NCBI GenBank assembly: GCA_017550745.1 | Contig: JAFZOG010000018.1 | Coordinates: 1-36,126, forward strand | Direction of reading: 5' to 3' | Source of the DNA: Clostridia bacterium | GTDB lineage: Bacteria > Bacillota > Clostridia > Christensenellales > Aristaeellaceae | DNA length: 36,126 nucleotides | Shown: positions 4,382 to 28,217 of the stretch, one piece after another | Layout: the number at the start of each line of letters is the position of its first letter | Numbering within the stretch: the stretch's first letter is position 1 | Notes under the pieces: model-generated | Seen by the model: the letters and a program-made list of their open reading frames with translations, nothing else | Told to the model about the DNA's origin: nothing | Database searches by the model: none | Made by a program: the position numbers and the translations under genes

Positions 4382-4430
4382 GGGATCAGATCCTTCCGTT
4401 GAGGTTCAGGGCTTCCTTTCTTTGATGCGT

Positions 4431-6486: not shown

Positions 6487-7887
6487 TTATCCCGCCACCT
6501 TGCCGGGATTCAGGATGCCGTTGGGGTCGAAAGCCGCCTTGATGCCGCGCATGAGGGCGATTTGCTTTTCGCCTACGCTCTCCCTCAGGAACGCCTTCTT
6601 GGCGTGGCCGATGCCGTGCTCGCCGCTGACCTCGCCGTTCAAGGCCCGGGCCTCGGCGTAGAGCTTTTCCATCACGGAAGCCACTGTTTTCTTCCATTCC
6701 GCTTCCGGCAGGTCGTCCCGGCAGACGTAGATGTGCAGGTTGCCGTCCCCGGCATGGCCGAAGGAGCGGATGCGCACCCCGGCTTCCCTGCCGATTTCAA
6801 CGGTTTTATGCACGAATTCCGGGATCACGTCCCGGGGCACCACCACGTCGCATTCGTCCATGGTGGTGGTGGAGCCCTTAATGGCCTCCAGGAACGCGCC
6901 CCGGGCGTTCCAGATGCTTTCCTTGCGCTCGTCGGTGTCGGCCAGCAATACGTCTTTGGCCCCCAGAGACAGGGCCAGATCGGTCAAGGTGTCGATGGCG
7001 GGCTGCAAAGCGTCGCTGCTGGGCCCGTCCAAACGCACCAGCAGATAGGCGTTGGCGCTGGTATCGGGGAACTGCTTGCCGAGGTACGTTTCCGCGCAGG
7101 AAATCACCTCCCGCTCCATGAATTCCACGGCGGTGGGGTCGCACCCGCAGGAAAGCACCCGGGGCACCGCGCCGATGCAGGCGTCCAGATCGTCAAAGGG
7201 CATGAGCAGGGAAAGGTTCACCTTGGGCTCCGGCACCAGCTTCACCGTCAGCTTGGTCAAAAAGCCCAGGGTGCCTTCACTGCCGATCATGAGGTCGATC
7301 AGGCTGTAGCCGGAGGAGGTTTTCACCGTTTTGCCGCCCAGCTCGATCACGCTGCCGTCCGCCAGCACCACTTCCATGCCCAGCACGTAATCCCGCGTGA
7401 CGCCGTAGCGCACGGCCCGCATGCCGCCCGCGTTGGTCATGGCGTTGCCGCCCATGGTGGCGGTCTTTTCACCGGGATCGGGGGGATAAAAGAGGCCCGT
7501 GCCTTCCAATGCTTTGGGGAATTCCATCAGCAGCACGCCGGGCTCCACCGTGGCGGTCATGTTCCGGGTGTCCACTTCCAGCACCTTTTTCATTTTCTCC
7601 GTGGACAGCACCACGCCGCCGTGGATGGCCACGCACCCGCCGCACAGGCCCGTGCCCGCGCCCCGGGGTGTGACGGCGATATGACGCTCGTTGCAGTATG
7701 TAAGCACCCGGCTCACGTCTTCGGTACTTAGCGCCTGCAGAACGGCCTCGGGCATGAAGTGGCCGTACTCCGTCATTTCGTCGTGGTCGTAGTCCGTGGA
7801 AATATCCTCTCCGGAGAACACCCGGCCCGGAAGCAGTTCACGGAAATACATGAGGTCTTTTTCCGTCACGTGATTGAACGTATTCAT
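6487..7887 (-). CDS. FAD-linked 2-hydroxyacid dehydrogenase, GlcD/LctD-like
   Basis: A 466-residue flavoprotein of the GlcD/D-lactate dehydrogenase family, which oxidises a 2-hydroxyacid to the 2-oxoacid and passes electrons to an Etf. The FAD_binding_4 domain (about 40-180) contains TPRGAGTGLCGG and the later DPGEKTATMGGNAMTNAGG. The FAD-oxidase C-terminal domain carries the metal/substrate histidines in FGHAGDGNLHI, then SGEHGIGHAKK and DPNGILNPGK at the end. Its ATG overlaps the EtfA1 stop by four bases (ATGA, 7887-7884). The order EtfB1, EtfA1 with ferredoxin domain, dehydrogenase is that of lctB-lctC-lctD, the electron-confurcating lactate dehydrogenase of Acetobacterium woodii. The operon context of sugar enzymes means the true substrate could be another hydroxyacid. 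Confidence 0.9.
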   Translation of the reverse strand: MNTFNHVTEKDLMYFRELLPGRVFSGEDISTDYDHDEMTEYGHFMPEAVLQALSTEDVSRVLTYCNERHIAVTPRGAGTGLCGGCVAIHGGVVLSTEKMKKVLEVDTRNMTATVEPGVLLMEFPKALEGTGLFYPPDPGEKTATMGGNAMTNAGGMRAVRYGVTRDYVLGMEVVLADGSVIELGGKTVKTSSGYSLIDLMIGSEGTLGFLTKLTVKLVPEPKVNLSLLMPFDDLDACIGAVPRVLSCGCDPTAVEFMEREVISCAETYLGKQFPDTSANAYLLVRLDGPSSDALQPAIDTLTDLALSLGAKDVLLADTDERKESIWNARGAFLEAIKGSTTTMDECDVVVPRDVIPEFVHKTVEIGREAGVRIRSFGHAGDGNLHIYVCRDDLPEAEWKKTVASVMEKLYAEARALNGEVSGEHGIGHAKKAFLRESVGEKQIALMRGIKAAFDPNGILNPGKVAG

Positions 7888-9071
7888 GCCTGTGCCTCCT
7901 TCAATTGCCGGATCAGCGCCGGAACGATCTCGTACAGGTCGCCCACGATGGCTACGTGGGCCACGTCGAAGATGGGCGCGTTTTTATCGGTGTTGATGGC
8001 TACGATGTGGTCGCTGCCGTTCATGCAGGCGGTGAACTGGATGGCCCCGCTGACCCCGCAGGTGATGATGAGCCGGGGCCGCACCGTGCGGCCGGATAAG
8101 CCGATCTGCCGGTCGTTGGTGTTCCAGCCCTTTTCCACCAGGGGACGGGTGGTGGCCCAGTCGCCGCCCAGGAGGCGGGCCAGCTCCCTGATCATGTCCA
8201 GGTCGCTTTCCTTTTGCAGGCCGCGTCCGCCCACCACCAGGATTTCCGCGTCGGAAATGCTCTTTTTCGGCGGAATGGGCTCAACGCTTACGCAGGAAAC
8301 CCGGCTTTCCAATACCCCCTTGGGGATCTTCCGGATCAGGATGTCCCCGGACGCTTCCTCTGCCCGCTCCGGCGGGGTCATCACCTTGTAGCGCACGGTG
8401 GCGAACTGGGGCCGGGTGTTGGTGGTGATGATCTGGGCCATGATGTTGCCGCCGAAGGCCGGGCGGATCTGCACCAGGTCGGTGTTTTCCCGCAGCTCCA
8501 GCTTCGTGCAGTCGGCGGTGAGGCCGGTATGGAACCGGGTGGAAAGCCTCGGCGCCAGGGAACGGCCCAGGGAGGTGGCTCCCACCAGCACCACGGAGGG
8601 ATGGGCGTATTTGATATAATCCTCCACGCAGGCGGCGTAGGCGTCCGCCCGGAAGTAGGACAGGGCCGGGTCGTCATACACCGCGATTTCGCTGACGCCA
8701 TAGTGCTTCAGCTCCTCCGCAAAGGCGCTGACGCCGCTGCCCACCAGCACGGTCTTGACCTTGTAATTCACGTTTTTCGCCAGCTCCCGGGCCTTGCCGA
8801 CCAGCTCCAGGCACACGGGATGCAGGCGGCCCCCGCTGACCTCGGCGAACACCAGGATATCGTTCCACTTGGATTTATCCACGGAGTCCACTTTGGTTTC
8901 CAGCTTCAAAATGGCCTTTTCCGGGCAGTTCTTCACGCAGATGCCGCACACCTTGCAGGCGGCGTTGAGGTCGGGCCTGCCGTCCTTCATGTCGATGGCC
9001 CCGAAGGGGCAGTTGCTCGCGCAGAGGCCGCAGCCGGTGCACTTGCGTTCCAGGATTGCAATCTTTGCCAT
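7884..9071 (-). CDS. Electron-transfer flavoprotein alpha subunit with N-terminal 2[4Fe-4S] ferredoxin domain (LctC-like)
   Basis: A 395-residue EtfA1. Residues 1-60 form a bacterial ferredoxin with two cluster motifs, CTGCGLCASNCP and CKVCGICVKNCP. The EtfA domains follow; the C-terminal FAD-binding part reads TTRPLVEKGW, QIGLSGRTVRPRL, GVSGAIQF and AINTDKNAPIFD. A ferredoxin-fused EtfA is characteristic of the bifurcating/confurcating Etfs LctC and CarE. With EtfB1 and the GlcD-like protein it should couple hydroxyacid oxidation to NAD+ reduction using reduced ferredoxin, or the reverse. AAAGGAGG overlaps the EtfB1 stop and supports the ATG at 9071. It is translationally coupled to the downstream dehydrogenase. 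Confidence 0.93.
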   Translation of the reverse strand: MAKIAILERKCTGCGLCASNCPFGAIDMKDGRPDLNAACKVCGICVKNCPEKAILKLETKVDSVDKSKWNDILVFAEVSGGRLHPVCLELVGKARELAKNVNYKVKTVLVGSGVSAFAEELKHYGVSEIAVYDDPALSYFRADAYAACVEDYIKYAHPSVVLVGATSLGRSLAPRLSTRFHTGLTADCTKLELRENTDLVQIRPAFGGNIMAQIITTNTRPQFATVRYKVMTPPERAEEASGDILIRKIPKGVLESRVSCVSVEPIPPKKSISDAEILVVGGRGLQKESDLDMIRELARLLGGDWATTRPLVEKGWNTNDRQIGLSGRTVRPRLIITCGVSGAIQFTACMNGSDHIVAINTDKNAPIFDVAHVAIVGDLYEIVPALIRQLKEAQA

Positions 9072-9086
9072 GTCCGCGATCCTCCT

Positions 9087-9866
9087 TTACACGAATTTCC
9101 ACTTTTTCAGCTGGTCGTGCAGCTTGTCCGCAAGGCCCTCCCCCTCCCACATTTCGTGGGCGGTGTCGTTGTCCGGCGGGAAGATGCGCTCCACCTGGGT
9201 GGGGCTGCCGGACAGGCCGTAATGGCTTTCGTCCGTATCCAGGAAGGAATCCAGGCCCTGGATGCGGATTTCCCTGTCCTTGATTTCCCGGGCGATTTTC
9301 AGGGAAGGAAGCCGGGGCATGAAGATGTCCTGCTCCACCGTCACCAGGCAGGGGAAGGGCATATGCACCGTTTCGATCACGTCCTGCAATTGCTGGCGGG
9401 CGTTCACGCCGTCCCCCTCCACGGCCAGTTCCGTCACCCAGGCGGCGTGGGGAATGCCCATATGCTCGGCGATGGCGGGGCCCACCTGGGCGGTGTCCCC
9501 GTCGGTGGTCTGCTTGCCGCAGAGGATCAGGTCAAAGTCTCCCACGCTCTGGATGGCCTGGGAAAGGGTGTAGCTGGTGGCCAGCACGTCCGCCCCGCCC
9601 AGCCGCCGGTCTGAAAACACATAGCCCTCGTCCGCGCCCATCATATACGCTTCCCTGATGATGGCCTGGGCCTGGGGCGGGCCCATGGTGCCCACCGTCA
9701 CTTTGCCCCCGTGCTTTTCCTTTAAGCGCAGGGCCGTTTCCAGGGCGTAAAGATCGTAGGGGTTCATTTTGCTCATGACCCCGCCGCGCTTCAGCACCCC
9801 CGTTTTTTCATCCACCTGCACCTTGTTGGTGGCAGGCACCTGCTTGATGCACACAAAGATGTTCAT
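9087..9866 (-). CDS. Electron-transfer flavoprotein beta subunit (LctB-like, EtfB1)
   Basis: A 259-residue EtfB that pairs with the ferredoxin-fused EtfA1. It begins MNIFVCIKQVP, the family start. It contains MNPYDLYALETALRLKEK, VTVGTMGPPQA, REAYMMGADEGYVFSD and DGDTAQVGP; this form is that of bifurcating EtfBs such as LctB and CarD. I place the start at ATG 9866, preceded by GGAAAGG. The frame is open further upstream to 10070 but that extension overlaps the previous gene and shows no family similarity. The gene lies 29 bp after the FAD oxidoreductase stop and 15 bp before EtfA1. Confidence 0.92.
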   Translation of the reverse strand: MNIFVCIKQVPATNKVQVDEKTGVLKRGGVMSKMNPYDLYALETALRLKEKHGGKVTVGTMGPPQAQAIIREAYMMGADEGYVFSDRRLGGADVLATSYTLSQAIQSVGDFDLILCGKQTTDGDTAQVGPAIAEHMGIPHAAWVTELAVEGDGVNARQQLQDVIETVHMPFPCLVTVEQDIFMPRLPSLKIAREIKDREIRIQGLDSFLDTDESHYGLSGSPTQVERIFPPDNDTAHEMWEGEGLADKLHDQLKKWKFV

Positions 9867-9895
9867 GCTGCGCCCATTCCTTTCCGAAAAGTATC

Positions 9896-11137
9896 TCATC
9901 GCACAATAGGCGGTATTGCGTCCCTTAGGTGAAGCAGCGCATGATCCCGGATCAGCGCCGTCTGCAGCTCGCTGATGTCCCACTGTCCATGCAGGGCCTG
10001 GAGGGCGGCGGCGGTTCCTGCCGCCTGACCCGTGACCGCGCAGCAGGGAATCACCCGCGTGATATCCCACATGCTTTCCGTTACGGATACGCAGCGCCCA
10101 GCCACGTATAAATGCTCCACTTCCCCGCAGTACAAAATCCCGGCGGGGATTTCAAATACCGGGCCACGCTTGCGCCAATCTCCCGTCATGCCCACGCTCT
10201 GGGAAAAATATGTTCCTTCCTCCGCTTCGTCCAGCGTATAGGCGCCTTGCAGCCGCCGGGTCATGCGAAGCTGGGGAATGGCTGGCAGAAGCACCGGTTC
10301 ATACGCGGGATCGCGCTTTTTTTCTTTCCGGTATCTTTGCAGCGTGACGGCGTGGGCGGCTTGCATCATGCGGCTGGTTTCCACGGCGTCTAAGCCGGAA
10401 TAAACGGTATTCTTGCCGGGGTCCGCCTCTAATTCTTTCTGAACGCTGGATGCCATGTCTTCCGATACGTCTAAACAGCCGACCATCCTCAAGCGCCGTC
10501 CGCCGGCGGTTTCGGCGTAATGCCAGGCCGCCAGCTTGTTGCCGCTTTCGCAGCAAACGGTAGGCGCGCCCGAAAGCTGGCACAGATCGGCGTCCCCCGT
10601 GCAGTCCACCACCGCGTCGGCGAAAACGCAGGAGCGCCCGCTTTTATCCTGCAAAATCACGCCCTGAATCCGATTGCCGTCCATCACTACGTCGGAAATC
10701 AGGGCGCCGTAGCGGATCTCTACCCCCGCTTTCAAAAGAAGCTGTTCCAATTCCAGGGCGTACAGGCAGGGGTTGTACTGCGTTTGCCACCGGATTTCCT
10801 TCCTTTTTTCCGGCGTTCCGTCGGGCTCCACCCAGGGAGCGGGATAGGGCAGATGGCTTTTTTCCATGCCGTGCTTGAGGGACAGGCGGATCAGTTCTTC
10901 CCCGATGCCGCCCACCACCTGATGGCCCTGCCCATCGCAGACGGGAAGGAAAATCGTGATGAGGCCCAGGGTGGCCAGCCCGCCCAACAGCCATTCCCGT
11001 TCGATCAGCAAGGTTTTCGCGCCCGTGCGGGCGGCGGCAAGAGCGGCGCTGACGCCTGCGATCCCGCCGCCCGCCACCAGCACCTGCGTCCGGTCCGCAA
11101 CGGGCGTTTTTCTTTCTTTTTCAAGGACGTATTCCAT
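9896..11137 (-). CDS. FAD-dependent oxidoreductase (FAD_oxidored family)
   Basis: A 413-residue soluble flavoprotein. It has a dinucleotide-binding start QVLVAGGGIAGVSAALAAARTG (GxGxxG at about 23-28) and the Glu of IERE. The following LLGGLATLG and the C-terminal HLYVAGRCVSVTESMWDITRV...TGQAAGTAAA are characteristic of the FAD_oxidored group (PF12831), often found in carbohydrate catabolic clusters and mostly of unknown substrate. I start it at ATG 11137, five bases after the IolB stop; the longer open frame overlaps IolB out of frame and is not credible. It probably oxidises a sugar or sugar-acid intermediate of the pathway, but the reaction cannot be read from sequence. Confidence 0.85.
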   Translation of the reverse strand: MEYVLEKERKTPVADRTQVLVAGGGIAGVSAALAAARTGAKTLLIEREWLLGGLATLGLITIFLPVCDGQGHQVVGGIGEELIRLSLKHGMEKSHLPYPAPWVEPDGTPEKRKEIRWQTQYNPCLYALELEQLLLKAGVEIRYGALISDVVMDGNRIQGVILQDKSGRSCVFADAVVDCTGDADLCQLSGAPTVCCESGNKLAAWHYAETAGGRRLRMVGCLDVSEDMASSVQKELEADPGKNTVYSGLDAVETSRMMQAAHAVTLQRYRKEKKRDPAYEPVLLPAIPQLRMTRRLQGAYTLDEAEEGTYFSQSVGMTGDWRKRGPVFEIPAGILYCGEVEHLYVAGRCVSVTESMWDITRVIPCCAVTGQAAGTAAALQALHGQWDISELQTALIRDHALLHLRDAIPPIVR

Positions 11138-11142
11138 ACGGG

Positions 11143-11958
11143 TCAGCTTTTCTTGATCAGGTTTTCCACGGCAGAAACCCAGGCGTGCTCCGGATCGTTG
11201 GTGCGGCAGAAGCCCTGATGATCCCCCGCCATGAGCCACAGGAAATAGGTGTTGTAGCCCGGGGCGGACACCGTGGTATGGTAGCCGCAGGGAAATTCCA
11301 CCAGCTCGTCGTTCTTGACGCGGTACGCTTCGTCGATGGAGCCGTCGGCCGTGTACAGGCACTGCACGCCGAAGCCCTGCTGCGGGTCGAAGAGGAAGTA
11401 GTAGATTTCCTCCGCCACGCATTCCGCCGGCATATTGTCCACGTCGTGCTTGTGGGGCGGGAAACCGGCCCAGTTGCCGGGGGTCACGTAGGCTTCGCCG
11501 ATGGTGAGCTTTTTGGCGTGGGTGGCGCCGTCCACGATGAAGGAGGTGTCCCGCTCCCAGGGTTTAACGCCAAGCCTGGCGATGCGCACGTCGGCTTGAT
11601 GAATGGCCTGGGGCTCCGTGTCCTGATTGATGGGGGTCATGCACACCGCGATCTTTACCTTAAATTCGCTTGCAATTTCCACCTTGGTGTTCCGGCCCGC
11701 GTAGAAGCATTCCGCCTTGGGGTTGGCAAATACGTTGGTGCGCACGCCCAGCTTGCCGTAATCTTTGCCGTTGGCTGTAAAGCAGGCGGAGCCGCCCAGC
11801 AGCACGAAGGCGACCTCCCGATCCTTGGTATCAAAGGTATAAGCGCCGTCATATCCCAGCTCGATGATGCCGAATTCCAGGTTGTTCAGGCTGCATTTGC
11901 CGATCTCGCACAGCGGGGTATAGCCCTCCCTGGGCGTATAGGTCTTTTTGTAATTCAT
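11143..11958 (-). CDS. iolB: 5-deoxy-glucuronate isomerase-like cupin (IolB family)
   Basis: A 271-residue double-cupin of the KduI/IolB family. IolB converts 5-deoxy-D-glucuronate to 5-dehydro-2-deoxy-D-gluconate in myo-inositol breakdown. The sequence has the metal-site pattern GFPPHKHD (two His), followed by EEIYYFLFDPQQGFGVQCLY and the late His in CGYHTTVSAPGYNTYFLWLMAG, all typical of IolB. The last segment, ending DPEHAWV, also matches the family. Its ATG overlaps the EtfA2 stop by four bases (ATGA at 11958-11955), so start and co-translation are well supported. No IolD or IolE is present in the window, so the isomerised compound may come from a different route or be a related uronate. 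Confidence 0.88.
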   Translation of the reverse strand: MNYKKTYTPREGYTPLCEIGKCSLNNLEFGIIELGYDGAYTFDTKDREVAFVLLGGSACFTANGKDYGKLGVRTNVFANPKAECFYAGRNTKVEIASEFKVKIAVCMTPINQDTEPQAIHQADVRIARLGVKPWERDTSFIVDGATHAKKLTIGEAYVTPGNWAGFPPHKHDVDNMPAECVAEEIYYFLFDPQQGFGVQCLYTADGSIDEAYRVKNDELVEFPCGYHTTVSAPGYNTYFLWLMAGDHQGFCRTNDPEHAWVSAVENLIKKS

Positions 11959-12896
11959 TGTATCCCCTTCCTTTCTTTGATAAATCGAATCATATATGCT
12001 GCGGTTTCCCGCCAAGGCGCAACGATGCCATAGTCCGCCGCCCGGAATATCGGCGCGTTCCGGTCGGTATTGACGGCCACGGCGTATTGGGCGCCCCGCA
12101 TGCCCGCCAGGTGCTGGATCATGCCGCTGATCCCAAAGGCCAGATACAGCGTGGGCCGCACCGTGACCCCCGTTTGCCCGATCTGATGGGCGTAGGGGAT
12201 CCATCCCGCGTCCACCGCGCTGCGGGTGGCCCCCACCGCGCCGCCGAGGAGCCTGGCCAGTTCAAAAAGCAGCGTAAACCCTTCCTTGCCCCCCACGCCT
12301 TTTCCGCCCGCCACGATCACCTTCGCCTGCTGCAGCGGGCACGGGTTATCTGTAGGAACCACGTCCATCAGCTGCATGAGCGTTTCCGGGAAAGCGCATG
12401 AGGCAATTTGCGCCTGGGCGTTTGCCGGGCGTATGTCCGCGCCGGGCAGGGGGAACACCCCGGGCCGGACGCTGGCCATCTGGGGCCTTCTTTCCGGGCA
12501 AAGGATGCTGGCCATCAGGCCCCCGCCATAAGCGGGGCGGGTCTGTAAAAGCAGGCCGTTTTCCGTCATGGACAAATCGGTGCAGTCCGCCGTCAGGCCC
12601 GTATGCAGCTTAGCCGCCGCCCAGGCGGACAAAAACCGGCCCCGCACCGTGGCGGGAAACAGAACGATATCGGGGGCCTGCTGCCCAAGCGCTTCCGCGA
12701 TGCGGCTGCCCTGGGCGCAGTCGTCCTCCGTTTCTCCCAGGAAAAGGGCCGTGTCCGCGCCGCAGCGGAAATACTTTTCCGGGTCCCGGTCCTCGTGCAG
12801 CGCCGTGATCCGCGCCTCCGGGGCCATGCACCGGGCCTTGTAAAGCAGCTCCTGCCCGGCGGGATGATTCCCTTCGCAAAATACGGTGATGGTCAT
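11955..12896 (-). CDS. Electron-transfer flavoprotein alpha subunit without ferredoxin domain (EtfA2)
   Basis: A 313-residue EtfA2 that would carry FAD and exchange electrons with a partner dehydrogenase. It lacks the ferredoxin domain of EtfA1. The FAD-binding C-terminal domain is complete: ATRSAVDAGW, HQIGQTGVTVRPTLY, GISGMIQHLAGM and AVNTDRNAPIF. The start is ATG 12896, which overlaps the EtfB2 stop as ATGA; an in-frame ATG at 12914 would overlap more and is less likely. Its N-terminal domain is short and divergent. Likely electron donors are the AGPS-like FAD dehydrogenase and Fe-S protein encoded earlier in the operon. Confidence 0.9.
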   Translation of the reverse strand: MTITVFCEGNHPAGQELLYKARCMAPEARITALHEDRDPEKYFRCGADTALFLGETEDDCAQGSRIAEALGQQAPDIVLFPATVRGRFLSAWAAAKLHTGLTADCTDLSMTENGLLLQTRPAYGGGLMASILCPERRPQMASVRPGVFPLPGADIRPANAQAQIASCAFPETLMQLMDVVPTDNPCPLQQAKVIVAGGKGVGGKEGFTLLFELARLLGGAVGATRSAVDAGWIPYAHQIGQTGVTVRPTLYLAFGISGMIQHLAGMRGAQYAVAVNTDRNAPIFRAADYGIVAPWRETAAYMIRFIKERKGIQ

Positions 12897-13663
12897 GAAA
12901 ACACCTCCGGGCACTTTGCCGCCAGGGCGTTCATGATTTCCTCCACCGAGCCCTTATGGCAGGGCCTGACTCCCGTTTCCTCCGCGCTGACGCGGACGAC
13001 CCGGGTGGGCGACGCCTTGATCCCGCATGCCATAGCGGAAAGCCCAAGATCATCCGGCGTCATCACCCGAACCTGGGCAGTCCTCGCTTTTCGTAATCCC
13101 AACAGATGGGGCAGCCGCAGCCGATAGCTCCATTCGCAGAAGGTGACCAAGGCGGGATAGGCGCATTGCCAGACTTTCACTTCCGTCTCGGTGAGCTGCC
13201 AGGCCGTCAGCTGTTCCCCCGCCTCCGCCCGCGTGAGGTTGACAGCGCAGGGGATGCCCAGCAGCGAGGCTGTCATGGGTCCCACCTGCCCCGTTTCCCC
13301 GTCCGCCGCCCTGCGCCCGCAGGCGATCAGGTCAAAGCCGCCCAGTGTTTCGATTGCTTTTGCCAGGCATTGGGCCGTGACCAGGGTATCCGCCCCGGCG
13401 AATCGGGGGTCGCTGAGCAGCACGGCTTCATCCGCGCCCCGGGAAAGGGCTTCCCGCAGGGTGCTTTCCGCGCGTTTCGGGCCCATGGACAGCACCGTGA
13501 CCCTGCCGCCCCGTTGATCCCGCACCCGCAGCGCCCATTCCAGGGCCGATTCGTCCGCCGGGTTCATCACCTGGGCCACGAAATCCCTCTCCAGGGTAAA
13601 ATCCGCCCGGAGCTTCACTTCCAGGGTGTCGGGCACCTGTTTTAAGCAAACCAGTATGTTCAT
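12893..13663 (-). CDS. Electron-transfer flavoprotein beta subunit (EtfB2)
   Basis: A 256-residue EtfB paralogous to EtfB1. Family landmarks are MNILVCLKQVPDT, MNPADESALEWALRVRD, VTVLSMGPKRAE, LREALSRGADEAVLLSD and DGETGQVGP. It pairs with EtfA2, to which it is joined by an ATGA overlap; its own start overlaps the FGGY kinase stop in the same way (13663-13660). The chain of overlaps FGGY-EtfB2-EtfA2-IolB implies stoichiometric, coupled translation. The two EtfB proteins differ clearly in sequence, so this is not a recent duplication. Confidence 0.92.
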   Translation of the reverse strand: MNILVCLKQVPDTLEVKLRADFTLERDFVAQVMNPADESALEWALRVRDQRGGRVTVLSMGPKRAESTLREALSRGADEAVLLSDPRFAGADTLVTAQCLAKAIETLGGFDLIACGRRAADGETGQVGPMTASLLGIPCAVNLTRAEAGEQLTAWQLTETEVKVWQCAYPALVTFCEWSYRLRLPHLLGLRKARTAQVRVMTPDDLGLSAMACGIKASPTRVVRVSAEETGVRPCHKGSVEEIMNALAAKCPEVFS

Positions 13664-15126
13664 AGCCGGTGATACACAGGCGCCAGCGCGGCCTGGATGT
13701 CCTTATAGATGGAAAAGCGCTCCTGATAGAAGGCGGCCCCTTCCGGGTCGGGCTCCGTGACTCCCGTGACCCGGACGCACTTATACACCGCGTCCTGATG
13801 CCCGTCAAAAATGCCCGCTGCCACCCCGGCCAGCATGGCGCTGCCCAGGGAGCTGTCCACGTTTTCCACGGTGCCCAGGGGGATATTGAGCATATCCGCC
13901 AAAATCTGCCGCCACAGGGGGGCTTTCGCGCCGCCGCCGATGGCCGCCGCTTCCTTGGGCGCGATGCCCAGTTCTTTCAATGTTTCAAAGCAGTCTTTCA
14001 TGGAGTAGGCCACGCCCTCCAACACCGCCCGGTTGAAATGGGCCTTGGTGTGGAAGCCCGCAGCGCCGGTAAAGCTGGCCCGCAGCCTGTCGTCCAGATA
14101 AGGGGTGATTTCGCCCTGGAGATAGGGGTGGAAGAAAAGCCCTTCGCAGCCCCTTTGTATATTCGCCGCCGCCTGGCTCATTTCCTCGTAATTGCCCCCA
14201 AAAGTGTCCCGATACCAGCGGTTGCAGGCAGCGCACGATTTGGTGGCCGTGCCGGGGTACCACAGGCCGTCCGCCACATGGCGGTAGGTCACCAGCCGGG
14301 GATCCACCACCGGGTGATCGGTGATGGGGCAGATGCGGCCCGCCGTGGCCAGCTTCACCGTGGCCTGGCCCACGGAAACCGCCCCGGAGGCGTACACCTC
14401 CATCACCGTGTCCGTAGCCCCGGCGATGACGACGGTTTTTTCTGTCAGGCCGGTATCCTGTTGGGCTTTCTTTGTCAGGGGCGACATCCTTTGGGTGGGC
14501 TCCACGATGGGGGGCATAATGTTTTTGTCGATGCCCGCCAGGCCGCACAAGCGTTCCGACCATGCGCAAAGCCGCGCGTCCAGCAAAAGAAAGCCCATGG
14601 CCTCGATGGAATCCGTGGCGTAATCGCCGGTGAGCAGGAAACGGATGTAATCCTTCACCGCCATGATCTTCTTGGTTTTTTTGATCACTTCCGGCTCGTG
14701 CTTTTTCAGCCACATGAGCTGGGGCAGGGTCCACAGGCTGGATACGCTGTTGTAGCATTCCCGGATCAGCGCTTCCCCCATTTCCCGCTTGAGCCATGCC
14801 GCTTCCTCGCCCGCCCGGCTGTCCGTCCAGTAAATGGCCCGGCGCAGAGGTTTGTCATGTTCGTCCAGCAGCACGGCGGTATGGGTGGCGGCGTCCAGCG
14901 CCAGGGCGGCGATATCGCCCGGGTCGATGGCGGTTTCCTTCAGGATGGCGCGGATATTGTCCACCAGCGCGTGATAGCTGTCCTGAATGTCCTGCTCCGC
15001 CCAGCCGTTCTGCGGGTAATAGGTGGGATATTCCCGGCTGGCGGCGGCATAGACCCTGCCGTCCTCTCCCAGCAGGGTGGCCTTGGAGGAGCTGCCTCCG
15101 AAATCCACGCCAAGCAAATATTTCAT
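13660..15126 (-). CDS. FGGY carbohydrate kinase (xylulokinase-like)
   Basis: A 488-residue sugar kinase of the FGGY family, the usual length. It phosphorylates a ketose, polyol or related substrate with ATP. The N-terminus has LLGVDFGGSSSKATL (phosphate loop 1), then NGWAEQDIQDSY and DAATHTAVLLDE. The C-terminal half has the ATP-site pattern AAIGGGAKAPLWRQILADML followed by SSLGSAMLAGVAAG. It resembles xylulokinase most, but FGGY specificity cannot be read safely. The ATG at 15126 has GGGAG upstream; a longer open frame to 15429 overlaps the preceding gene and is rejected. An intercistronic hairpin separates it from the Fe-S protein gene. It is one of two sugar kinases in the operon. Confidence 0.88.
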   Translation of the reverse strand: MKYLLGVDFGGSSSKATLLGEDGRVYAAASREYPTYYPQNGWAEQDIQDSYHALVDNIRAILKETAIDPGDIAALALDAATHTAVLLDEHDKPLRRAIYWTDSRAGEEAAWLKREMGEALIRECYNSVSSLWTLPQLMWLKKHEPEVIKKTKKIMAVKDYIRFLLTGDYATDSIEAMGFLLLDARLCAWSERLCGLAGIDKNIMPPIVEPTQRMSPLTKKAQQDTGLTEKTVVIAGATDTVMEVYASGAVSVGQATVKLATAGRICPITDHPVVDPRLVTYRHVADGLWYPGTATKSCAACNRWYRDTFGGNYEEMSQAAANIQRGCEGLFFHPYLQGEITPYLDDRLRASFTGAAGFHTKAHFNRAVLEGVAYSMKDCFETLKELGIAPKEAAAIGGGAKAPLWRQILADMLNIPLGTVENVDSSLGSAMLAGVAAGIFDGHQDAVYKCVRVTGVTEPDPEGAAFYQERFSIYKDIQAALAPVYHRL

Positions 15127-15165
15127 CTTCCGTCTCCCGCCTTTTCCATGGAATATACCGGAAAC

Positions 15166-15190
15166 GGCGCAGGGCAGCCGGCCCTGCGCC
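15166..15190 (-). promoter_or_regulatory. Intercistronic hairpin
   Basis: A perfect 10-bp stem, GGCGCAGGGC (15166-15175) with GCCCTGCGCC (15181-15190), around a 5-base loop. There is no T-run in the direction of transcription. It lies in the only sizeable gap (77 bp) within the 13-gene operon, between the Fe-S protein and FGGY kinase genes. A role as RNA-stability or processing element is more likely than termination. Confidence 0.55.
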
Positions 15191-15203
15191 AAATAAGATA
15201 TTC

Positions 15204-16286
15204 TCAGAGATGATCTTTGAGCAGCACGAACAGATCGGTGTATTGATACCCTTCCGGCACGGCGGCCCTCAGCCCTTCCGTACTCTGGGGGCAGGCGGCG
15301 GTCAAGCGCTTTGCGTCGGTGCGCTTTACGTCGTTCCAGCGGTTTTCGGCCACGCGCCTGGCGATGTCCGGCATGAACTGCCGCGCCACCGCGCTGCCGC
15401 AGCACTTGGCCAGGCGGCGGTTCTGCCACATTTCATGGATTTCGAAGCCCATGGCCTTGAGGATATTCCGGGCCGGTTCGTGCTCGTCCAGGTCCCGGGC
15501 CAGGCGGCTGCCGTCATGATAGGTGATCACGCCGCCGTCCTTTTGGGGCTTGAGGCGGCCTTCCCGGATCAGCCCGTCCACAAAGGCCGCGGCCGTCACG
15601 ATTTCGGGCAGGCCGATGCCCCAATCCTTGTATTCGTGGAGCATCAGGGCGGCGTCGTAGCTGTCCAGCACGATCACCCGCTTGGCGCCGCTGCCGCGGA
15701 TGGCTTCCCCGGCTTTCGCGGCCTGGGCGCGCACGTCCTCCACAAAGCCCATGAGATCCCCTAAGGCGGAACCGGAAGCGGGCTCATCTTTCAGCGCTGC
15801 GAAGGACACCCCCGCTTTTTTCATGATAACGAACAGCGCCTGGGCCGTTTCGGGCACGCTGTACCGGGCGCATTCTCCCAGCCACACCAGGGTTTCTCCC
15901 GTTTCGGGAAGGCCGTCAAAGCAGACCTTGGGTTCCCTGGCGCCGTAGATGTTCCCCGTTTCCAGCACCCGATCAATCACCTTTTGCACTTCAGGCGGCA
16001 CGATGTCCAGCACGTTGGCCTGGGTGCGCGCCTCGCGGATGAACACCAGGGGATCAAAGCCGGTGGCGCAGTCGTTGGTGCAGGCTCCGCAGAGCATGCA
16101 TTCATACATGGTCTTTCCGCAGTCCTTTTCCATGGGCATGCCCCGCTCGATCATGCTCACCTGCAGGCCCTTGGCCCGGGGGGTGTTGGTTTCCTTGCCC
16201 GTCACCAGCTGTACGGGGCACAGATGACGGCACATCCAGCAGAAGCGGCATGCGTCCGCGTTTTTCTTCGCTTTTTCGCTGAACAT
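15204..16286 (-). CDS. Iron-sulfur protein, GlpC/HdrD-like with degenerate CCG region
   Basis: A 360-residue protein with an N-terminal ferredoxin domain bearing two [4Fe-4S] motifs: CRFCWMCRHLCP and CMLCGACTNDC. The rest resembles the cysteine-rich (CCG) region of GlpC, LutA and HdrB/D-type subunits, but its motifs are eroded. The usual 'DPCHLGR' reads HDGSRLAR, the second CCG motif reads AKCCGSAVAR, and the last CPxC reads ACPQS. It therefore probably transfers electrons between the neighbouring FAD dehydrogenase and EtfAB2 and may lack the non-cubane cluster. AAAGGAG before ATG 16286 and the 19-bp gap after the FAD dehydrogenase support co-expression. Confidence 0.87.
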   Translation of the reverse strand: MFSEKAKKNADACRFCWMCRHLCPVQLVTGKETNTPRAKGLQVSMIERGMPMEKDCGKTMYECMLCGACTNDCATGFDPLVFIREARTQANVLDIVPPEVQKVIDRVLETGNIYGAREPKVCFDGLPETGETLVWLGECARYSVPETAQALFVIMKKAGVSFAALKDEPASGSALGDLMGFVEDVRAQAAKAGEAIRGSGAKRVIVLDSYDAALMLHEYKDWGIGLPEIVTAAAFVDGLIREGRLKPQKDGGVITYHDGSRLARDLDEHEPARNILKAMGFEIHEMWQNRRLAKCCGSAVARQFMPDIARRVAENRWNDVKRTDAKRLTAACPQSTEGLRAAVPEGYQYTDLFVLLKDHL

Positions 16287-16305
16287 TTTCTTTCTCTCCT
16301 TTCCG

Positions 16306-17736
16306 TCACAGACCCAGCTTGTAGGGGTTCAGCAGGCCGTTGGGGTCCAGCGCCTTTTTCAGCCCCTCCGTCACCTGCATGGCGGGGCCGTACTGCTCCT
16401 TCATCAGGCGGGAGAGCTTGAGGCCGATGCCGTGGTGGTCGTTGATCACGCCGCCGTTTTCCATGGCCGCCCGGACGCCCACGTTCCAGATCCGGTTATG
16501 CAGCCGGATGGCTTCCTCCGGGTCCTGGGGCACGTCCTTGGGGTCCACGATGAACCGGGTATAGTTCATGCAGCCCCATTCGTACCAATGGCTGGAATGG
16601 GAAATATAGCGCACGAAGGGGAAATTGTCGTTGATGGCCTTCTTCATGGCCCAGTAAATCTTTTCGATGTTGGCGTAGGTGGCCACGGTGTCCATGGTGC
16701 CGAACATCTGGGGAATATCCATGATGTGGCCGGGGTAGAAGAAGGTGATGCGGTTTTCATACCACTTTTCGCCGTATTCGCTGCCCAGGTCCTGGCCGCC
16801 CCACTTCTTGGCGATTTCCAGGATGATTTCCATTTCGATGTCCACGATGCGCTGGATGCCTTCCACGGCCAGGTTCATGAAGCAGCCTTTCTTTTCAAAG
16901 CCCAGGATCTTTTTGATGATGGACACCGTTTCCGCTTCGTCGAAGAACCGCAGGATGGAGGGCTTCACCTTCTGCATGATGTCCCGCCCCGCCATATAGC
17001 CGGAGTGCATGTCGGGAAAGAGGAACGCGCGGAACTGGCGGCTTTCCGGCTGCTCAAAGAGCTTGAAGGTGGCTTTGGTGATCACCCCCAGGGTGCCCTC
17101 GGAGCCGATGAAAATCTGGTTCAGGTCCGGCCCCGCCGCGTGCTTGGGCACCGGCAGGGTGTTGATGATATCGCCGTTGGGCAGCACCACTTCCATGGAG
17201 ATGCACATATCGTCGATCTTGCCGTACTTGGTGCTCATGATGCCGATGCCCCGGTGGCCCAGCGCGCCGCCGATGGTGCCGCAGGTGAGGCAGGAGGGGA
17301 TATGCATGCAGGAATAGCCCTTTTCGTTGGCGTACCATTCCAGCTGCTGGAAGATCATGCCCGCTTCGGCGGTGATGGTGCGGCTCACCTCGTCGATCTC
17401 GATCAGACGGCTCATGCGCTTCATATCCATCATGATGCCCCCGGCCATGGGCAGCGCGCCGCCCTGGGAGCCGCTGCCGCCGCCCCAGATGTGTACGGGG
17501 ATTTTATAATAATTGGCGATTTTGAGCACCTTGCTCACTTCTTCGCTGCCGCCCGGCCGCACGATCCAGTCCGGCATGGGGGGCACCTGGCCCCGGTCCG
17601 CCCACATGCGGCCCACCCAGAAATAATCCACCCCATATGTCATCCGGTCGCTGACGGAAACGGATACGTTTTCCACGCCCACCGCGTCCTCCAGCTCCGT
17701 TTGGATCATATCGCCCATAAATGCCTTGCGTTCCAT
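16306..17736 (-). CDS. FAD-binding dehydrogenase, AGPS/GlcD superfamily
   Basis: A 476-residue flavoprotein. The FAD_binding_4 domain (about 45-190) reads PDWIVRPGGSEEVSKVLKIA, IWGGGSGSQGG and SCLTCGTIGGALGHRGIG. The C-terminal domain has FVRYISHSSHWYEWGC in place of the HxGDGNxH of GlcD-type enzymes, then DHHGIGLKLSRLM and DPNGLLNPYKLGL. The SHxxHxYxxG form and HHG motif resemble alkylglycerone-phosphate synthase and related oxidases more than lactate dehydrogenase. I start it at ATG 17736, with GGGAGG ten bases upstream; the in-frame ATG at 17754 lies at the edge of that ribosome site. Adjacent Fe-S and Etf genes suggest it oxidises a pathway alcohol or hydroxyacid and feeds EtfAB2. Confidence 0.88.
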   Translation of the reverse strand: MERKAFMGDMIQTELEDAVGVENVSVSVSDRMTYGVDYFWVGRMWADRGQVPPMPDWIVRPGGSEEVSKVLKIANYYKIPVHIWGGGSGSQGGALPMAGGIMMDMKRMSRLIEIDEVSRTITAEAGMIFQQLEWYANEKGYSCMHIPSCLTCGTIGGALGHRGIGIMSTKYGKIDDMCISMEVVLPNGDIINTLPVPKHAAGPDLNQIFIGSEGTLGVITKATFKLFEQPESRQFRAFLFPDMHSGYMAGRDIMQKVKPSILRFFDEAETVSIIKKILGFEKKGCFMNLAVEGIQRIVDIEMEIILEIAKKWGGQDLGSEYGEKWYENRITFFYPGHIMDIPQMFGTMDTVATYANIEKIYWAMKKAINDNFPFVRYISHSSHWYEWGCMNYTRFIVDPKDVPQDPEEAIRLHNRIWNVGVRAAMENGGVINDHHGIGLKLSRLMKEQYGPAMQVTEGLKKALDPNGLLNPYKLGL

Positions 17737-17741
17737 CGCTG

Positions 17742-18692
17742 TTATTCCTCCCATACTTTGTGTTCAAGCGTTATTCCGCGGCTTCGCAGGAAAGCGCGGC
17801 ATTCTTCGTCGTCCGCCATGGCCTGGCGCGCGCCTAGGCGGGTGCATTTGATGGCCGCCGCCGCGCTGGCGTACTGGCAGGCTTCGCCGTTGGCATAGCC
17901 CCGTATCTTGCCCGCGGCAAAGGCGCCGTGGAAGGTGTCGCCGCAGCCGTTGGTATCTACCGCATGCACCGGATAGCTTTCATATCGGCGCATGCCCTTT
18001 TCATCCAGCAGGATGCCGCCCCGGACGCCCTGGGTCACCACCAGGACCTCGGGCCGGTACGCATCATACAGCTTTTCCGCGGCTTTCTCGGCGGTATCCT
18101 CCCCGGTGATTTTCAGCGCGAATTCCTCGGAGGGGATCAGATAATCCGCAAAGGGCAAAAGCCTCTCGACCCCCGGGTACGTGCCGCCCGCGTCGTAGCT
18201 GACCTTGACGCCCATCTTTCTGCATTCCCTGGCCGCGTATACCGCGGCGTCCAGCATATGCCCGTCCACGTGCAGCACCCGGGCATGGGCCAGCATGTCC
18301 CTGTCCAGCTCTTCCGGGGCGGGGGGCTCCACGGTGCCCCTGTTCCAAATGCAGGTGCGGCTGGAGGCGGCCTGATTTAAAAGCACCACGGAATGGAAGC
18401 TGACGCCGCCGGGAACCACGCGCACCGCGCTGGTATCCACCTGCCAGCGCCTGAAATCCTCCATCATGAACGCGCCGAAGGGGTCGCCGCCGATGGTGCC
18501 CATATAGGCAGCGGGGATGCCCAGCCTGCTGGCGGCCACCAGGGCCGTGGCGCAGGGGCCGCCCCCCTGTACCTTGGTTTCAATGCCCTGCTGCTTGGTG
18601 TCCTCCGCGGGGAAATGATCCACCACCATCAGCGTATCATAAACCGTGGAGCCGATGCCCACCATCAGGGGCCACGTTTTGAAATCACGCAT
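17742..18692 (-). CDS. PfkB family carbohydrate kinase
   Basis: A 316-residue kinase of the ribokinase/PfkB family. It begins with the strand of VGIGSTVYDT and has the sugar-binding VQGGGPCATALVAASRLG (about 41-58). The ATP/anion-hole signature DTNGCGDTFHGAFAAG (246-261) holds the catalytic base D252. The end, AAIKCTRLGAR, is like that of the sulfofructose-kinase/IolC-related branch. The next upstream gene is a class II aldolase, which suggests it makes a ketose or keto-acid 1- or 6-phosphate for aldol cleavage. In the inositol pathway IolC does this to 5-dehydro-2-deoxygluconate, and IolB is in the same operon. The start ATG 18692 overlaps the aldolase stop by eight bases. Substrate is not provable from sequence. 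Confidence 0.88.
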   Translation of the reverse strand: MRDFKTWPLMVGIGSTVYDTLMVVDHFPAEDTKQQGIETKVQGGGPCATALVAASRLGIPAAYMGTIGGDPFGAFMMEDFRRWQVDTSAVRVVPGGVSFHSVVLLNQAASSRTCIWNRGTVEPPAPEELDRDMLAHARVLHVDGHMLDAAVYAARECRKMGVKVSYDAGGTYPGVERLLPFADYLIPSEEFALKITGEDTAEKAAEKLYDAYRPEVLVVTQGVRGGILLDEKGMRRYESYPVHAVDTNGCGDTFHGAFAAGKIRGYANGEACQYASAAAAIKCTRLGARQAMADDEECRAFLRSRGITLEHKVWEE

Positions 18693-19518
18693 TGCTGTTC
18701 TCCGCCCGCAGGAGCCTGATTTTTTCACGGCCGAAGGCCGCTACGGCGTTTATGGGCTCCTTCATGAACAGATCCACGGCGAAGATTTCCCGGCTGACGG
18801 CGAACACGCCGTCCAGGAACGAATAGCACACATCGGTGCCGAAATTGATTTTCCGGATGCCGGCGCCGATGGCCCGGGTGATCTGATCGTCGGGCACGCC
18901 GCTGCCGCCGTGGAGCACCAGCGCCGTCTGGGGGAGCGCCTCATGGATTTCCCGGATGCGGTCCACGGCGATGACGGGGGCCTGCTTATAATGGCCGTGG
19001 GCCGTGCCCACCATGATGGCCAGGGCGTCCACCCCGGTGCGCCGGACGAATTCCACCGCCTCGTCCACCCGGGTGTAGTCCGTGGGCACGCCGTCCTTGG
19101 CGGAACCGATGTGCCCCAGTTCGCCCTCCACCTGCACCCCTACGGCGTGGGCGAAATCCACCACGTCCTTGAGGATTTTTACGTTTTCTTCAAAGGGCTC
19201 GGTGCTGGCGTCCCGCATGACGCCGGTGCAGCCCCAGCGCAGGGCCTTGGCCACCACCTGCCGGTCCGCGCCGTGATCCAGGTGCAGGGCAATCTTGACC
19301 TTCGATTTTTGGGCCGCCGCCACCAGGGCGGGCATCATGAACTCCGCCTCAAAATTGGAAAACAGGCGGCTGTACATTTGCAGGATCACGCAGGAATTGG
19401 CTTCCTCGGCGGCGCGGATGATGCCAAGGGCCGTTTCTGCGTTGTACACGTTGAACGCCGGGACGGCGCATTGCTTTTCTTCCGCGATGTCCAATACGGT
19501 TTTCAGGCTGACGAGCAC
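18685..19518 (-). CDS. Class II (zinc) aldolase, FbaA/GatY/IolJ family
   Basis: A 277-residue metal-dependent aldolase that splits a ketose-phosphate-type compound into dihydroxyacetone phosphate and an aldehyde. Family residues are in place: the catalytic/metal pair in HLDHG (D81, H82), E133 in EGELGHIG, the zinc histidines in VGTAHGHYK (H174/H176) and LHGGSGV (H203), and INFGTD for phosphate binding. Members include fructose- and tagatose-bisphosphate aldolases and IolJ, which cleaves 2-deoxy-5-keto-gluconate-6-phosphate. The start is GTG 19518 with GGGAGGG eight bases upstream; no better ATG fits. Position between a sugar isomerase and a PfkB kinase gives the classical isomerise-phosphorylate-cleave set. 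Confidence 0.92.
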   Translation of the reverse strand: MLVSLKTVLDIAEEKQCAVPAFNVYNAETALGIIRAAEEANSCVILQMYSRLFSNFEAEFMMPALVAAAQKSKVKIALHLDHGADRQVVAKALRWGCTGVMRDASTEPFEENVKILKDVVDFAHAVGVQVEGELGHIGSAKDGVPTDYTRVDEAVEFVRRTGVDALAIMVGTAHGHYKQAPVIAVDRIREIHEALPQTALVLHGGSGVPDDQITRAIGAGIRKINFGTDVCYSFLDGVFAVSREIFAVDLFMKEPINAVAAFGREKIRLLRAENSNA

Positions 19519-19539
19519 GGCTTATCCCTCCCTTTTTGC

Positions 19540-20931
19540 TTACTTTACGCTGTCCAGTTTCAGGTTGGGCACGAATCGGGTAAATTCGCGGATCACGTCC
19601 GCCAAATCCCCCTCCACCTCGCACATGTGGTGGATGTAGGGGCCTTCCACCAGCTTCCGTTCCCAAGCGGGCAGGTCGTCAAACTGCGCCCACAGGTAGG
19701 TGCCGAAGGTGTAGGGGCCGTCCGCGGAGGTACAGGTGCCGGCTAAAATGCTGTAATCGCCATTGTCCTGGTCGAAGCGGGCGATGGTATATTTGCCGTC
19801 CTTCACCTGGAACCACTGGCGCATGTTCACGTTCTTGCAGGGGCTGCCTTCCTTTTTGAGGCTGTACGCGAAGGGGCCGCAGTGCCACAGCAATTCCGTG
19901 TTCCTGTCCTCCGGATGGCGCACGGTAAATTCACCCAGGAAGGGAATCTTCTCGCCCAGGGCCGCGCAGGACAGCAGGGCCATGGTGATGGCGGCGTGCA
20001 TGTCGCTTTCGCAGGAAATGATATAGCCCATATCGGCCAATACGCTGTACGCCGTGCAGGGCATGGCGCCCACGGCCAGCTGCATGGCCGTCCAGCACTC
20101 GGCGGACACGGCCTGGACCCGGTATGTTTCAAACACCCACTGATACAGCAGCACAAAGGCGTACACCTTTTTCAGCAGCGGCGGGGTGATATCGTCCATT
20201 TCGTAGCGGGACAAAAGCAGCCTGGCCCCCGCCTCCAGCTCGGCGTCCTTCTCCTTCAATATTTTATTGTACTGGTCCACGACCACCGCCAGGTTCACCG
20301 GCACGATCTGCAGGCCGAACTTCTCCATCAATTCGCCTTCGTTGAAGATCACGGAGCAGAAGGGCTTGGGCCGCATGCCCACCTGGGCGATGCGCATGCC
20401 GGTGAAATTTTTCACCATGCAGCTCACCCGGACGAACCGGTCCAGCCCCTTGGCGAAGATTTCGCTGTCCACCCGGCAGGTTTCGATGAAGCTGAAGGGG
20501 ATATGCAGCCGCTGGAACTGCCTGCTCACGCCGAAGATGCCGCACTGGCTGTCGGTAAAGCGGGAGCCGTCCGGCAGGAATTCATCGTCCTGCATGGCCC
20601 AGATGCAGGCGGGCTTGCCCACGCCCCTTGCCACCTGGGCGGCGATTTCCTCGTTGCCGAAATTGGCGTTGATGATCAGCACCGCGTCCACCTTTTCCGC
20701 CTTGAACCGCTCGATCACCCTGTCCGCGTCCTCGTCGCAGTACATCACGTCCACCGGATTGATGCCCTTTAAGTCCGCAAAGGACACGTGCTCGGAGGCA
20801 AAATGCTCCTCAATGTACTTGACGGCAGCGCGGCCCCGCTCCTCCGCTTTTTCCCAATTAAAAATCCCGGGCCGGGCGCTCACGTCCCGCCGCATGGGGG
20901 CCAATCCGATTTTGACCTTGTAATTCAGCAT
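19540..20931 (-). CDS. L-fucose/L-arabinose isomerase family protein
   Basis: A 463-residue protein of the FucI/AraA isomerase superfamily, which interconverts aldoses and ketoses with a Mn2+ ion. The central part has the family pattern AVSAECWTAMQLAVGAMPC, then GYIISCESDMHAAITMALLS. The acids of AEC/CES-D and a late His (IHHMCEVEG) are probable metal ligands. The N-terminal region (ADRVIERFKAEKVDAVLIINANFGNEE) matches the Rossmann-like domain of these enzymes. At 463 residues it is shorter than E. coli FucI (about 590), like many uncharacterised FucI-like proteins in Firmicutes. It is the first gene of the 13-gene operon and probably acts early in the pathway; the sugar is unknown. Confidence 0.85.
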   Translation of the reverse strand: MLNYKVKIGLAPMRRDVSARPGIFNWEKAEERGRAAVKYIEEHFASEHVSFADLKGINPVDVMYCDEDADRVIERFKAEKVDAVLIINANFGNEEIAAQVARGVGKPACIWAMQDDEFLPDGSRFTDSQCGIFGVSRQFQRLHIPFSFIETCRVDSEIFAKGLDRFVRVSCMVKNFTGMRIAQVGMRPKPFCSVIFNEGELMEKFGLQIVPVNLAVVVDQYNKILKEKDAELEAGARLLLSRYEMDDITPPLLKKVYAFVLLYQWVFETYRVQAVSAECWTAMQLAVGAMPCTAYSVLADMGYIISCESDMHAAITMALLSCAALGEKIPFLGEFTVRHPEDRNTELLWHCGPFAYSLKKEGSPCKNVNMRQWFQVKDGKYTIARFDQDNGDYSILAGTCTSADGPYTFGTYLWAQFDDLPAWERKLVEGPYIHHMCEVEGDLADVIREFTRFVPNLKLDSVK

Positions 20932-26260: not shown

Positions 26261-26295
26261 CCACAACCCTCGCTGTTCTGTTTTTCTCTGCCTGC

Positions 26296-28114: not shown

Positions 28115-28151
28115 GCCGGTCATCTCCTGCCTTGGCTGTGAAGAATGGAGC

Positions 28152-28185: not shown

Positions 28186-28217
28186 AAGGATTCAGTCATT
28201 CAGCGCTTTCAATCGCG

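Follow-up and report, generated by a model that had tools for sequence, protein, structure and literature searches.

We analyzed a window of 36,126 nucleotides, the whole contig JAFZOG010000018.1 of a Clostridia bacterium (from a 186-contig, 3.75-Mb assembly, GCA_017550745.1, labeled G000; other G and L numbers denote the genomes and loci compared with it), which carries a run of 13 genes on the minus strand, read from position 20931 to 6487. In transcription order, these encode a sugar isomerase (ISO), a class II aldolase (FBA), a PfkB-family kinase (PfkB), a flavoprotein (GlcD1), a cysteine-rich electron-transfer protein (CCG), an FGGY carbohydrate kinase (FGGY), the electron-transfer flavoprotein (Etf) subunits EtfB1 and EtfA1, an IolB-like isomerase (IolB), an FAD-dependent oxidoreductase (FADox), and a second Etf pair with another flavoprotein (EtfB2, EtfA2, and GlcD2). 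The run is modular: ISO, FBA, and PfkB form module B, the six genes GlcD1, CCG, FGGY, EtfB1, EtfA1, and IolB form module A, the last three genes form module C, and FADox is an extra. Modules A and B are shown here to be a recurrent gene set of gut and rumen Clostridia, kept together while its order changes, and module C is a lineage add-on. No description of the A+B set was found in the open-licence literature, in agreement with a sequence-only reading of the window, which knew of no described pathway with all of these genes. We consider it very probable that A and B form one pathway. Functions were assigned by homology, and the incompleteness of metagenome-assembled genomes (MAGs) limits the gene counts given below.

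Layout and conservation of the gene run

With start codons chosen by ribosome-binding-like sequence, which shortened several of the listed open reading frames, the intergenic gaps in transcription order were 21, -8, 5, 19, 77, -4, -4, and -4 bp as far as IolB, and 29, 15, and -4 bp after FADox, the start of which is uncertain. The largest gap was 77 bp wherever a start could be placed, and ATGA-type 4-bp overlaps with an ATG start were found ahead of EtfB1, EtfA1, IolB, and GlcD2. The sequence-only reading had described 13 co-directional genes with such overlaps or gaps under 80 bp, and this layout was borne out, as were the gene families that it had named. Upstream, 210 bp separate the run from a divergent plus-strand pair (GFO/IDH/MocA and ThuA), and downstream, about 500 bp separate GlcD2 from a GGDEF gene. 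Promoter-like matches (5, versus a shuffled mean of 4.6 with a standard deviation of 1.9) and terminator-like matches (23, versus 17.0 and 5.3) were at shuffle level, so that co-transcription rests on spacing and strand, from which we infer an operon structure.

A contig scan with seven GlcD1 sequences returned 436 stretches that encode a relative; we examined the 80 best. Within these 80 loci, many of which lie on short contigs and in which the two Etf pairs cross-match, the counts were 75 for CCG, 59 for FBA, 58 for FGGY, 55 each for PfkB and IolB, 52 for EtfA1, 48 for EtfB1, and 41 for ISO, followed by DUF4867 (25), aldose epimerase (14), the racemase LarA (11), EtfB2 (9), Gfo (7), FADox (6), GlcD2 (5), and EtfA2 (5). 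The six core genes GlcD1, CCG, FGGY, IolB, FBA, and PfkB lay within one run in 42 of the 80 loci, 27 of them with ISO too, and took five different arrangements (20, 11, 9, 1, and 1 loci). Spelled out with ISO and the Etf genes, the commonest order was ISO-GlcD1-CCG-FBA-PfkB-IolB-FGGY-EtfB-EtfA (nine loci), in which the genes of A and B are intermixed. Uncut runs, which stop short of the stretch ends (n = 36), held CCG in all cases, EtfA1 in 31, IolB and FGGY in 30 each, FBA and PfkB in 28 each, EtfB1 in 27, and ISO in 16. Genes of a NagA cluster and a NagB cluster were present in 12 and 11 of the 80 loci, respectively; NagA and divergent NagB-like genes are inserted in L062, L085, L106, L110, L112, and L113, and L062 and L112 each have a pair of NagB paralogues.

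GlcD1 loci were found in Hungatella hathewayi WAL-18680 (L068, with no FGGY inside the stretch examined), in the isolate bacterium 1xD8-48 (L071, with all core genes), and in Eisenbergiella, among other hosts. Two Spirochaete MAGs also have them, one with a complete module A (L087) and one without IolB (L079), and a Synergistaceae contig showed GlcD1 and CCG only. Of 297 evenly sampled genomes in this order, GlcD1 was matched at 1e-60 by 10, counting that of the window. A search of 60 relatives (own included) with ISO gave close orthologues in G002 (81%), G021 (78%), and G029 (63%). G021 has all 13 genes except FADox, reordered and accompanied by aldose epimerase, DUF4867, and LarA; the G002 contig ends inside EtfA1 and carries aldose epimerase and LarA, with EtfAB2 and GlcD2 not on the contig.

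Reciprocally, 47 of 391 genomes of the class (own included) matched ISO at 1e-70, and we compared 23 stretches with an ISO identity of 45 to 59% (22 genomes, own left out, several on truncated contigs) with the next seven by E value. GlcD1 was near ISO in 14 of the 23 strong loci and in none of the seven weaker ones, and FBA and PfkB were each found in 16 of 23 and one of seven. NagA/NagB-like genes accompany ISO in three strong loci (L186, L200, and L201). The conserved synteny in other Clostridia that the sequence-only reading had suggested looking for therefore exists for modules A and B. Its claim that all 13 genes form one pathway fits nine of them; it does not extend to the rarely found GlcD2, EtfA2, and FADox, and 9 of the 23 strong ISO loci are without GlcD1 in the stretch examined.

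Module B and the proposed cleavage of a sugar

In the pathway that we propose, an ABC transporter would import a sugar, which, in the case of the window, the divergent pair of dehydrogenase and ThuA may release from a glycoside. ISO would then convert the aldose to a ketose, PfkB would phosphorylate the ketose at C1, and FBA would split the ketose 1-phosphate into dihydroxyacetone phosphate (DHAP) and an aldehyde without phosphate, which may be glyceraldehyde. ISO (19540..20931, minus strand) belongs to its own clade of the L-fucose/L-arabinose isomerase-like superfamily; it matched no Pfam family, a PDB search to an E value of 1 gave no match, and its sole NCBIfam match was SftI (sulfoquinovose isomerase) at 122.7 bits against a cut-off of 700. 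FBA (18685..19518, minus strand; PF01116, 279.7 bits) is a class II ketose-phosphate aldolase by family match and by its metal and catalytic positions H79-L-D-H-G83, E133, H174, and H203, which do not vary among all 16 sequences compared. The alignment position that we take to be the C6-phosphate arginine (Arg331) of FbaA is K in 11 of 16 sequences and E, E, N, H, and T in the other five, so FBA probably needs no C6 phosphate on its substrate. The profile of PfkB (17742..18692, minus strand, with a likely start at 18692; PF00294), a PfkB-family ketose kinase, matched E. coli sulfofructose kinase best in the PDB (194.2 bits), then ribokinase (140.5) and ketohexokinase (131.6). Sulfofructose kinase and ketohexokinase are ketose 1-kinases, and this nearness supports a predicted phosphorylation at C1. 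Taken together, C1 phosphorylation with aldol cleavage is a reading that we judge fairly likely.

The suggestion of glyceraldehyde comes from neighbors in other genomes. A second type of ISO cluster, found at L180, L182, L183, and L024 (G029) and, truncated, at L181, comprises an MDH2/ComC-like dehydrogenase, an aldo-keto reductase, a glycerate-2-kinase-like and an enolase-like protein, an aldehyde dehydrogenase, PfkB, ISO, FBA, and DUF4867. All five of these sister loci (four class loci and G029) contain ISO, FBA, PfkB, DUF4867, and the aldehyde dehydrogenase, and the other four genes are present in the four loci with a long enough contig. An Eda-family aldolase scored over its cut-off in L180, the sole locus tested, and similar reading frames were seen by eye in L182 and L183. 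This gene content is reminiscent of the lower part of the non-phosphorylative Entner-Doudoroff route, and glyceraldehyde could be converted to phosphoenolpyruvate by the aldehyde dehydrogenase together with the glycerate kinase and the enolase. Their joining to ISO, PfkB, and FBA hints that module B gives DHAP and glyceraldehyde from an unphosphorylated aldohexose. The idea that the sister clusters replace module A was rejected, since three of the five genomes (G399, G426, and G649) hold a GlcD1 orthologue elsewhere; in G649 it lies at L202, another ISO locus of the same type as the window's, G584 has no GlcD1 match at 1e-20, and G029 has a weak match. This result lowered our overall confidence and took glyceraldehyde from nearly an even chance to a tentative assignment, which we now hold to be possible and somewhat improbable.

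The same three enzyme families also raise the prospect of sulfoglycolysis resembling the sulfo-Embden-Meyerhof-Parnas (sulfo-EMP) pathway, in which sulfoquinovose would be isomerized, phosphorylated, and cleaved to DHAP and sulfolactaldehyde, with the flavoproteins oxidizing sulfolactate or releasing sulfite. Its isomerase, PfkB kinase (sulfo-EMP), and class II aldolase (sulfo-EMP2) families recur in the window, SftI is the only family matched by ISO, and the window PfkB is nearest to sulfofructose kinase. DUF4867, named SqvB in sulfo clusters (PMC9594981), occurs in the 25 GlcD1 loci counted above, and the best model of the MDH2-like dehydrogenase in the G029 sister cluster is L-sulfolactate dehydrogenase (236.9 bits, below the cut-off of 500). 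However, ISO misses the equivalog cut-off widely, and a paralogue from another sugar cluster of the window's genome (G000:C155) scores about the same (120.6 bits). That genome also has a row of three genes (L211, G000:C72, 1042-4821) in which DUF4867 is flanked by a true xylulokinase (543.4 bits) and an isomerase weakly resembling SftI (55.1 bits), and DUF4867 may thus not be specific to sulfosugar clusters. At the position that we take to be the sulfonate-binding Arg138 of YihV, all 16 sequences compared have Asn or His. No close relative of E. coli YihQ was found: identity was at most 33% in 34 genomes, 24 of which gave no match at 1e-30 (a search without positive control). The YihQ family model, over its cut-off in none of the 34 genomes, was not used as evidence, as the E. 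coli control likewise fell below. The aldehyde dehydrogenases of the sister clusters, judged by motif position, carry neither of the residue pairs, Arg/Arg or His/Asn, that PMC10599462 proposes for sulfolactaldehyde dehydrogenases (five of five). The window further differs from both sulfo-EMP pathways by the addition of FGGY, IolB, and Etf-linked flavoproteins. Sulfoquinovose was downgraded on the paralogue score, the xylulokinase neighbor of DUF4867, the failure to find a close YihQ relative, and the aldehyde dehydrogenase residues, and we regard it as very improbable.

Another alternative is an inositol-type or uronate pathway, in which IolB, PfkB, and FBA would act like IolB, IolC, and IolJ on a uronate-like aldehyde to give DHAP and a carboxylated C3 aldehyde. 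The window shares the IolB family and the kinase-plus-aldolase logic with the myo-inositol iol pathway, and IolB scores over the equivalog cut-off, narrowly in the window (TIGR04378, 206.8 versus 205 bits) and more clearly in L112 (230.7 bits). IolB, FBA, and PfkB also co-travel (30, 28, and 28 of the 36 uncut runs), and the FBA profile finds YdjI first in the PDB (251.9 bits, followed by a ketose-bisphosphate aldolase at 250.3), an enzyme that prefers substrates ending in carboxylate. However, only 3 of 34 ISO-bearing genomes (and 3 of 14 controls) had an IolD above the cut-off, and G000 was not among them, which leaves 5-deoxyglucuronate without a known source there. PfkB falls far below the IolC cut-off (92.2 versus 300), and ISO, FGGY, and the flavoproteins would be left unexplained, ISO and the flavoproteins being additions relative to the iol pathway. 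Inositol breakdown was downgraded on the IolD result, which also disfavors the cyclitol that the sequence-only reading had offered as a possible substrate, and we hold this route to be improbable.

ISO is also 33 to 35% identical to Listeria and Monoglobus isomerases annotated as L-fucose/L-arabinose isomerase family, which belong to isomerase-transketolase-FGGY clusters whose substrate we take to be apiose; clusters with DUF4038 or DUF5060 presumably have apiosidase or apiose roles. These clusters use a split transketolase, whereas the window run uses PfkB and an aldolase, and no split transketolase was found beside ISO in the 23 strong loci (0 of 23) or among the window reading frames scanned. 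Separately, the same assembly holds an isomerase paralogue (70% to Monoglobus), a split transketolase, an FGGY kinase, and a DUF5060 protein at L036 (G000:C155, 4712-11000), possibly an apiose pathway.

Modules A and C and the proposed fate of the fragments

Within the proposed pathway, module A would channel back into central metabolism either the other cleavage product or a linked polyol or sugar acid: IolB would isomerize and FGGY would phosphorylate, while GlcD1 and CCG would oxidize a hydroxyl group and pass electrons to EtfAB1. GlcD1 (16306..17736, minus strand) is an FAD_binding_4/FAD-oxidase_C flavoprotein nearest to alkyl-dihydroxyacetonephosphate synthase (ADPS; 156.8 bits, LctD 120.6). 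CCG (15204..16286, minus strand; PF02754 and PF13183) combines Fer4 and cysteine-rich CCG domains, and FGGY (13660..15126, minus strand, start set by a ribosome-binding-like sequence) is xylulokinase-like. EtfB1 (12893..13663, minus strand; PF01012), EtfA1 (11955..12896, minus strand; PF00766 and PF01012, no ferredoxin domain), and IolB (11143..11958, minus strand; PF04962, 220.6 bits) complete the module. At a minimum, it would provide flavin oxidation of a hydroxyl group, isomerization, and phosphorylation, in an order that we propose with low confidence. A glycerol-phosphate reading, drawing on the ADPS-like enzyme, a GlpC-like CCG, and GldA with an antiterminator in some loci, is offered as an idea only.

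The unit recurs in Clostridia and in the two Spirochaete MAGs, and a reduced form is found in Proteobacteria. Pairs of FAD enzyme and FGGY kinase show identities of 45% and 41% in Mesorhizobium, 31% and 39% in Labrenzia, 30% and 23% in Enterococcus gilvus, and 32% and 22% in the E. coli ygc cluster (YgcU and ygcE). The latter, annotated as "putative," also shares an EtfAB pair (ygcQR, 28 to 30%) with the window, but its annotated stretch has no CCG protein, IolB, isomerase, or aldolase. On a Mesorhizobium plasmid (L145, 10504-14585), a xylulokinase and the FAD oxidoreductase are accompanied by a hypothetical protein in the CCG position without NCBIfam match. In L080 (12583-14053), the FGGY gene was matched as two pieces, perhaps through a frameshift or assembly error.

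This distribution bears on a further alternative, namely two side-by-side pathways for two sugars of one glycan, with B serving one aldose and A (with NagA/NagB-like genes in some loci) serving another polyol, sugar acid, or amino sugar. Module A was found without B in the stretches examined at nine loci (L074, L075, L077, L079, L080, L082-L084, and L088), B without A nearby also occurs, and the paired FAD oxidoreductase and FGGY genes of Alphaproteobacteria, E. gilvus, and E. coli stand without B. Against this separation, the genes of A and B are intermixed in the commonest order, and we consider two pathways somewhat improbable.

Module C consists of EtfB2 (9087..9866, minus strand; PF01012), EtfA2 (7884..9071, minus strand), and GlcD2 (6487..7887, minus strand), preceded by the lineage-specific FADox (9896..11130, minus strand, start uncertain; PF12831). 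The LctC-like EtfA2 has Fer4 matches within its first 60 residues and ETF domains after, a ferredoxin domain that only this EtfA possesses. In the PDB, its best match was LctC of the Acetobacterium woodii LctBCD lactate dehydrogenase (7qh2_A, 404.4 bits, next 311.9), and that of the LctD-like flavoprotein GlcD2 was LctD (7qh2_C, 572 bits, next 272.7), so that the closest solved relatives lead by a wide margin (EtfB2 was left out of this comparison). EtfB2 occupies the LctB position, and the order EtfB2-EtfA2-GlcD2 matches the LctB-LctC-LctD order of that system; the window copy differs in being embedded in a sugar operon. A search of the assembly with GlcD2 matched GlcD2 and GlcD1 only, leaving GlcD2 as the single LctD-like gene found. 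Module C would thus be a lineage-specific copy of the LctBCD system in which NAD and ferredoxin serve the oxidation of a 2-hydroxyacid, either lactate or glycerate. The flavin-based electron confurcation put forward in the sequence-only reading is plausible by homology for EtfAB2 and GlcD2 and does not fit beyond these three genes. LarA follows the module C genes in L057, L058, and L061; it is absent from the window and was not found in its assembly (a search without positive control), and, together with the rarity of module C, this weakened lactate as the sole logic. PMC11770544 and PMC7583248 describe LarA relatives that racemize lactate and glycerate or epimerize gluconate.

Several observations weigh against the proposed pathway. 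ISO is missing from 20 of the 36 uncut runs, and the sister clusters, in addition to the GlcD1 orthologues (65 to 67%) encoded elsewhere in three of their five genomes, have a PfkB only 31 to 33% identical to that of the window. Where module A lacks B, its neighbors are LarA, MDH2-like genes, and TRAP-like importers (labeled TRAP by eye), and it may act on an acid substrate of its own. Genes read by eye as RpiR, malic enzyme, and aminotransferase also occur among the loci. FGGY resembles xylulokinase (TIGR01312, 365.5 bits, below the cut-off of 380.25) rather than glycerol kinase (146.6 bits), which does not favor a triose substrate, and the NagA/NagB-like genes would suit an entry into PfkB and FBA from an amino sugar or a ketose 6-phosphate instead. 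We give the whole explanation, with A and B as one pathway, a C1 kinase, aldol cleavage, salvage by A, and hydroxyacid oxidation by C, slightly less than an even chance. A further reading, which we find rather doubtful, would make module A a new redox sugar-salvage unit, with the ADPS-like flavoenzyme, CCG, and Etf acting on a small keto-sugar or its phosphate, alongside the FGGY kinase and an IolB relative recruited as a triose-level or sugar-acid isomerase; anaerobes might thereby draw off reducing equivalents from a sugar cleavage that would otherwise be redox-neutral.

Flanking genes and significance

The divergent GFO/IDH/MocA gene (21142..22239, plus strand) would encode a sugar or glycoside dehydrogenase, possibly of the same regulon as the run. 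It scored 141.1 bits with the levoglucosan dehydrogenase model (cut-off 650), and its PDB matches were a probable oxidoreductase (120.6 bits) followed by sugar and scyllo-inositol dehydrogenases. A GH188-type sulfoquinovosidase role was dropped, as 8qc3 and 8qc2, which we take to be GH188 entries, gave 41.0 and 40.3 bits against this best score. The ThuA-domain protein (22215..22964, plus strand; PF06283, 107.8 bits) follows. Beyond it lie a two-component system (22992..26266, minus strand), the probable regulator, with a histidine kinase at 22992-24785 and an AraC-type response regulator at 24740-26266, and a sugar ABC importer with two permeases and a solute-binding protein (26349..29483, minus strand), the probable uptake system. 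Response regulator and histidine kinase genes also precede ISO in L061 and L068, and homologues of the importer adjoin ISO clusters in L062, L068, and L069. At 29831-34594 (plus strand), the window carries a separate ABC importer like putative 2-aminoethylphosphonate transporters (PhnS2/U2/T2-like, below cut-offs), then an HD-domain protein, and downstream of the run (1195-5984) a MATE exporter, an EAL/GGDEF protein, and a GGDEF protein.

The core set is carried by 42 of the best 80 of the 436 loci, many of them in rumen and hindgut genomes, and a sugar from the diet or the host may be broken down there along a route that is not yet open to modeling. In this gene set, the splitting of a sugar is linked directly to electron handling by Etf, and working out the function of modules A and B would give a lead on the still "putative" ygcQR, ygcU, and ygcE genes of E. 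coli.

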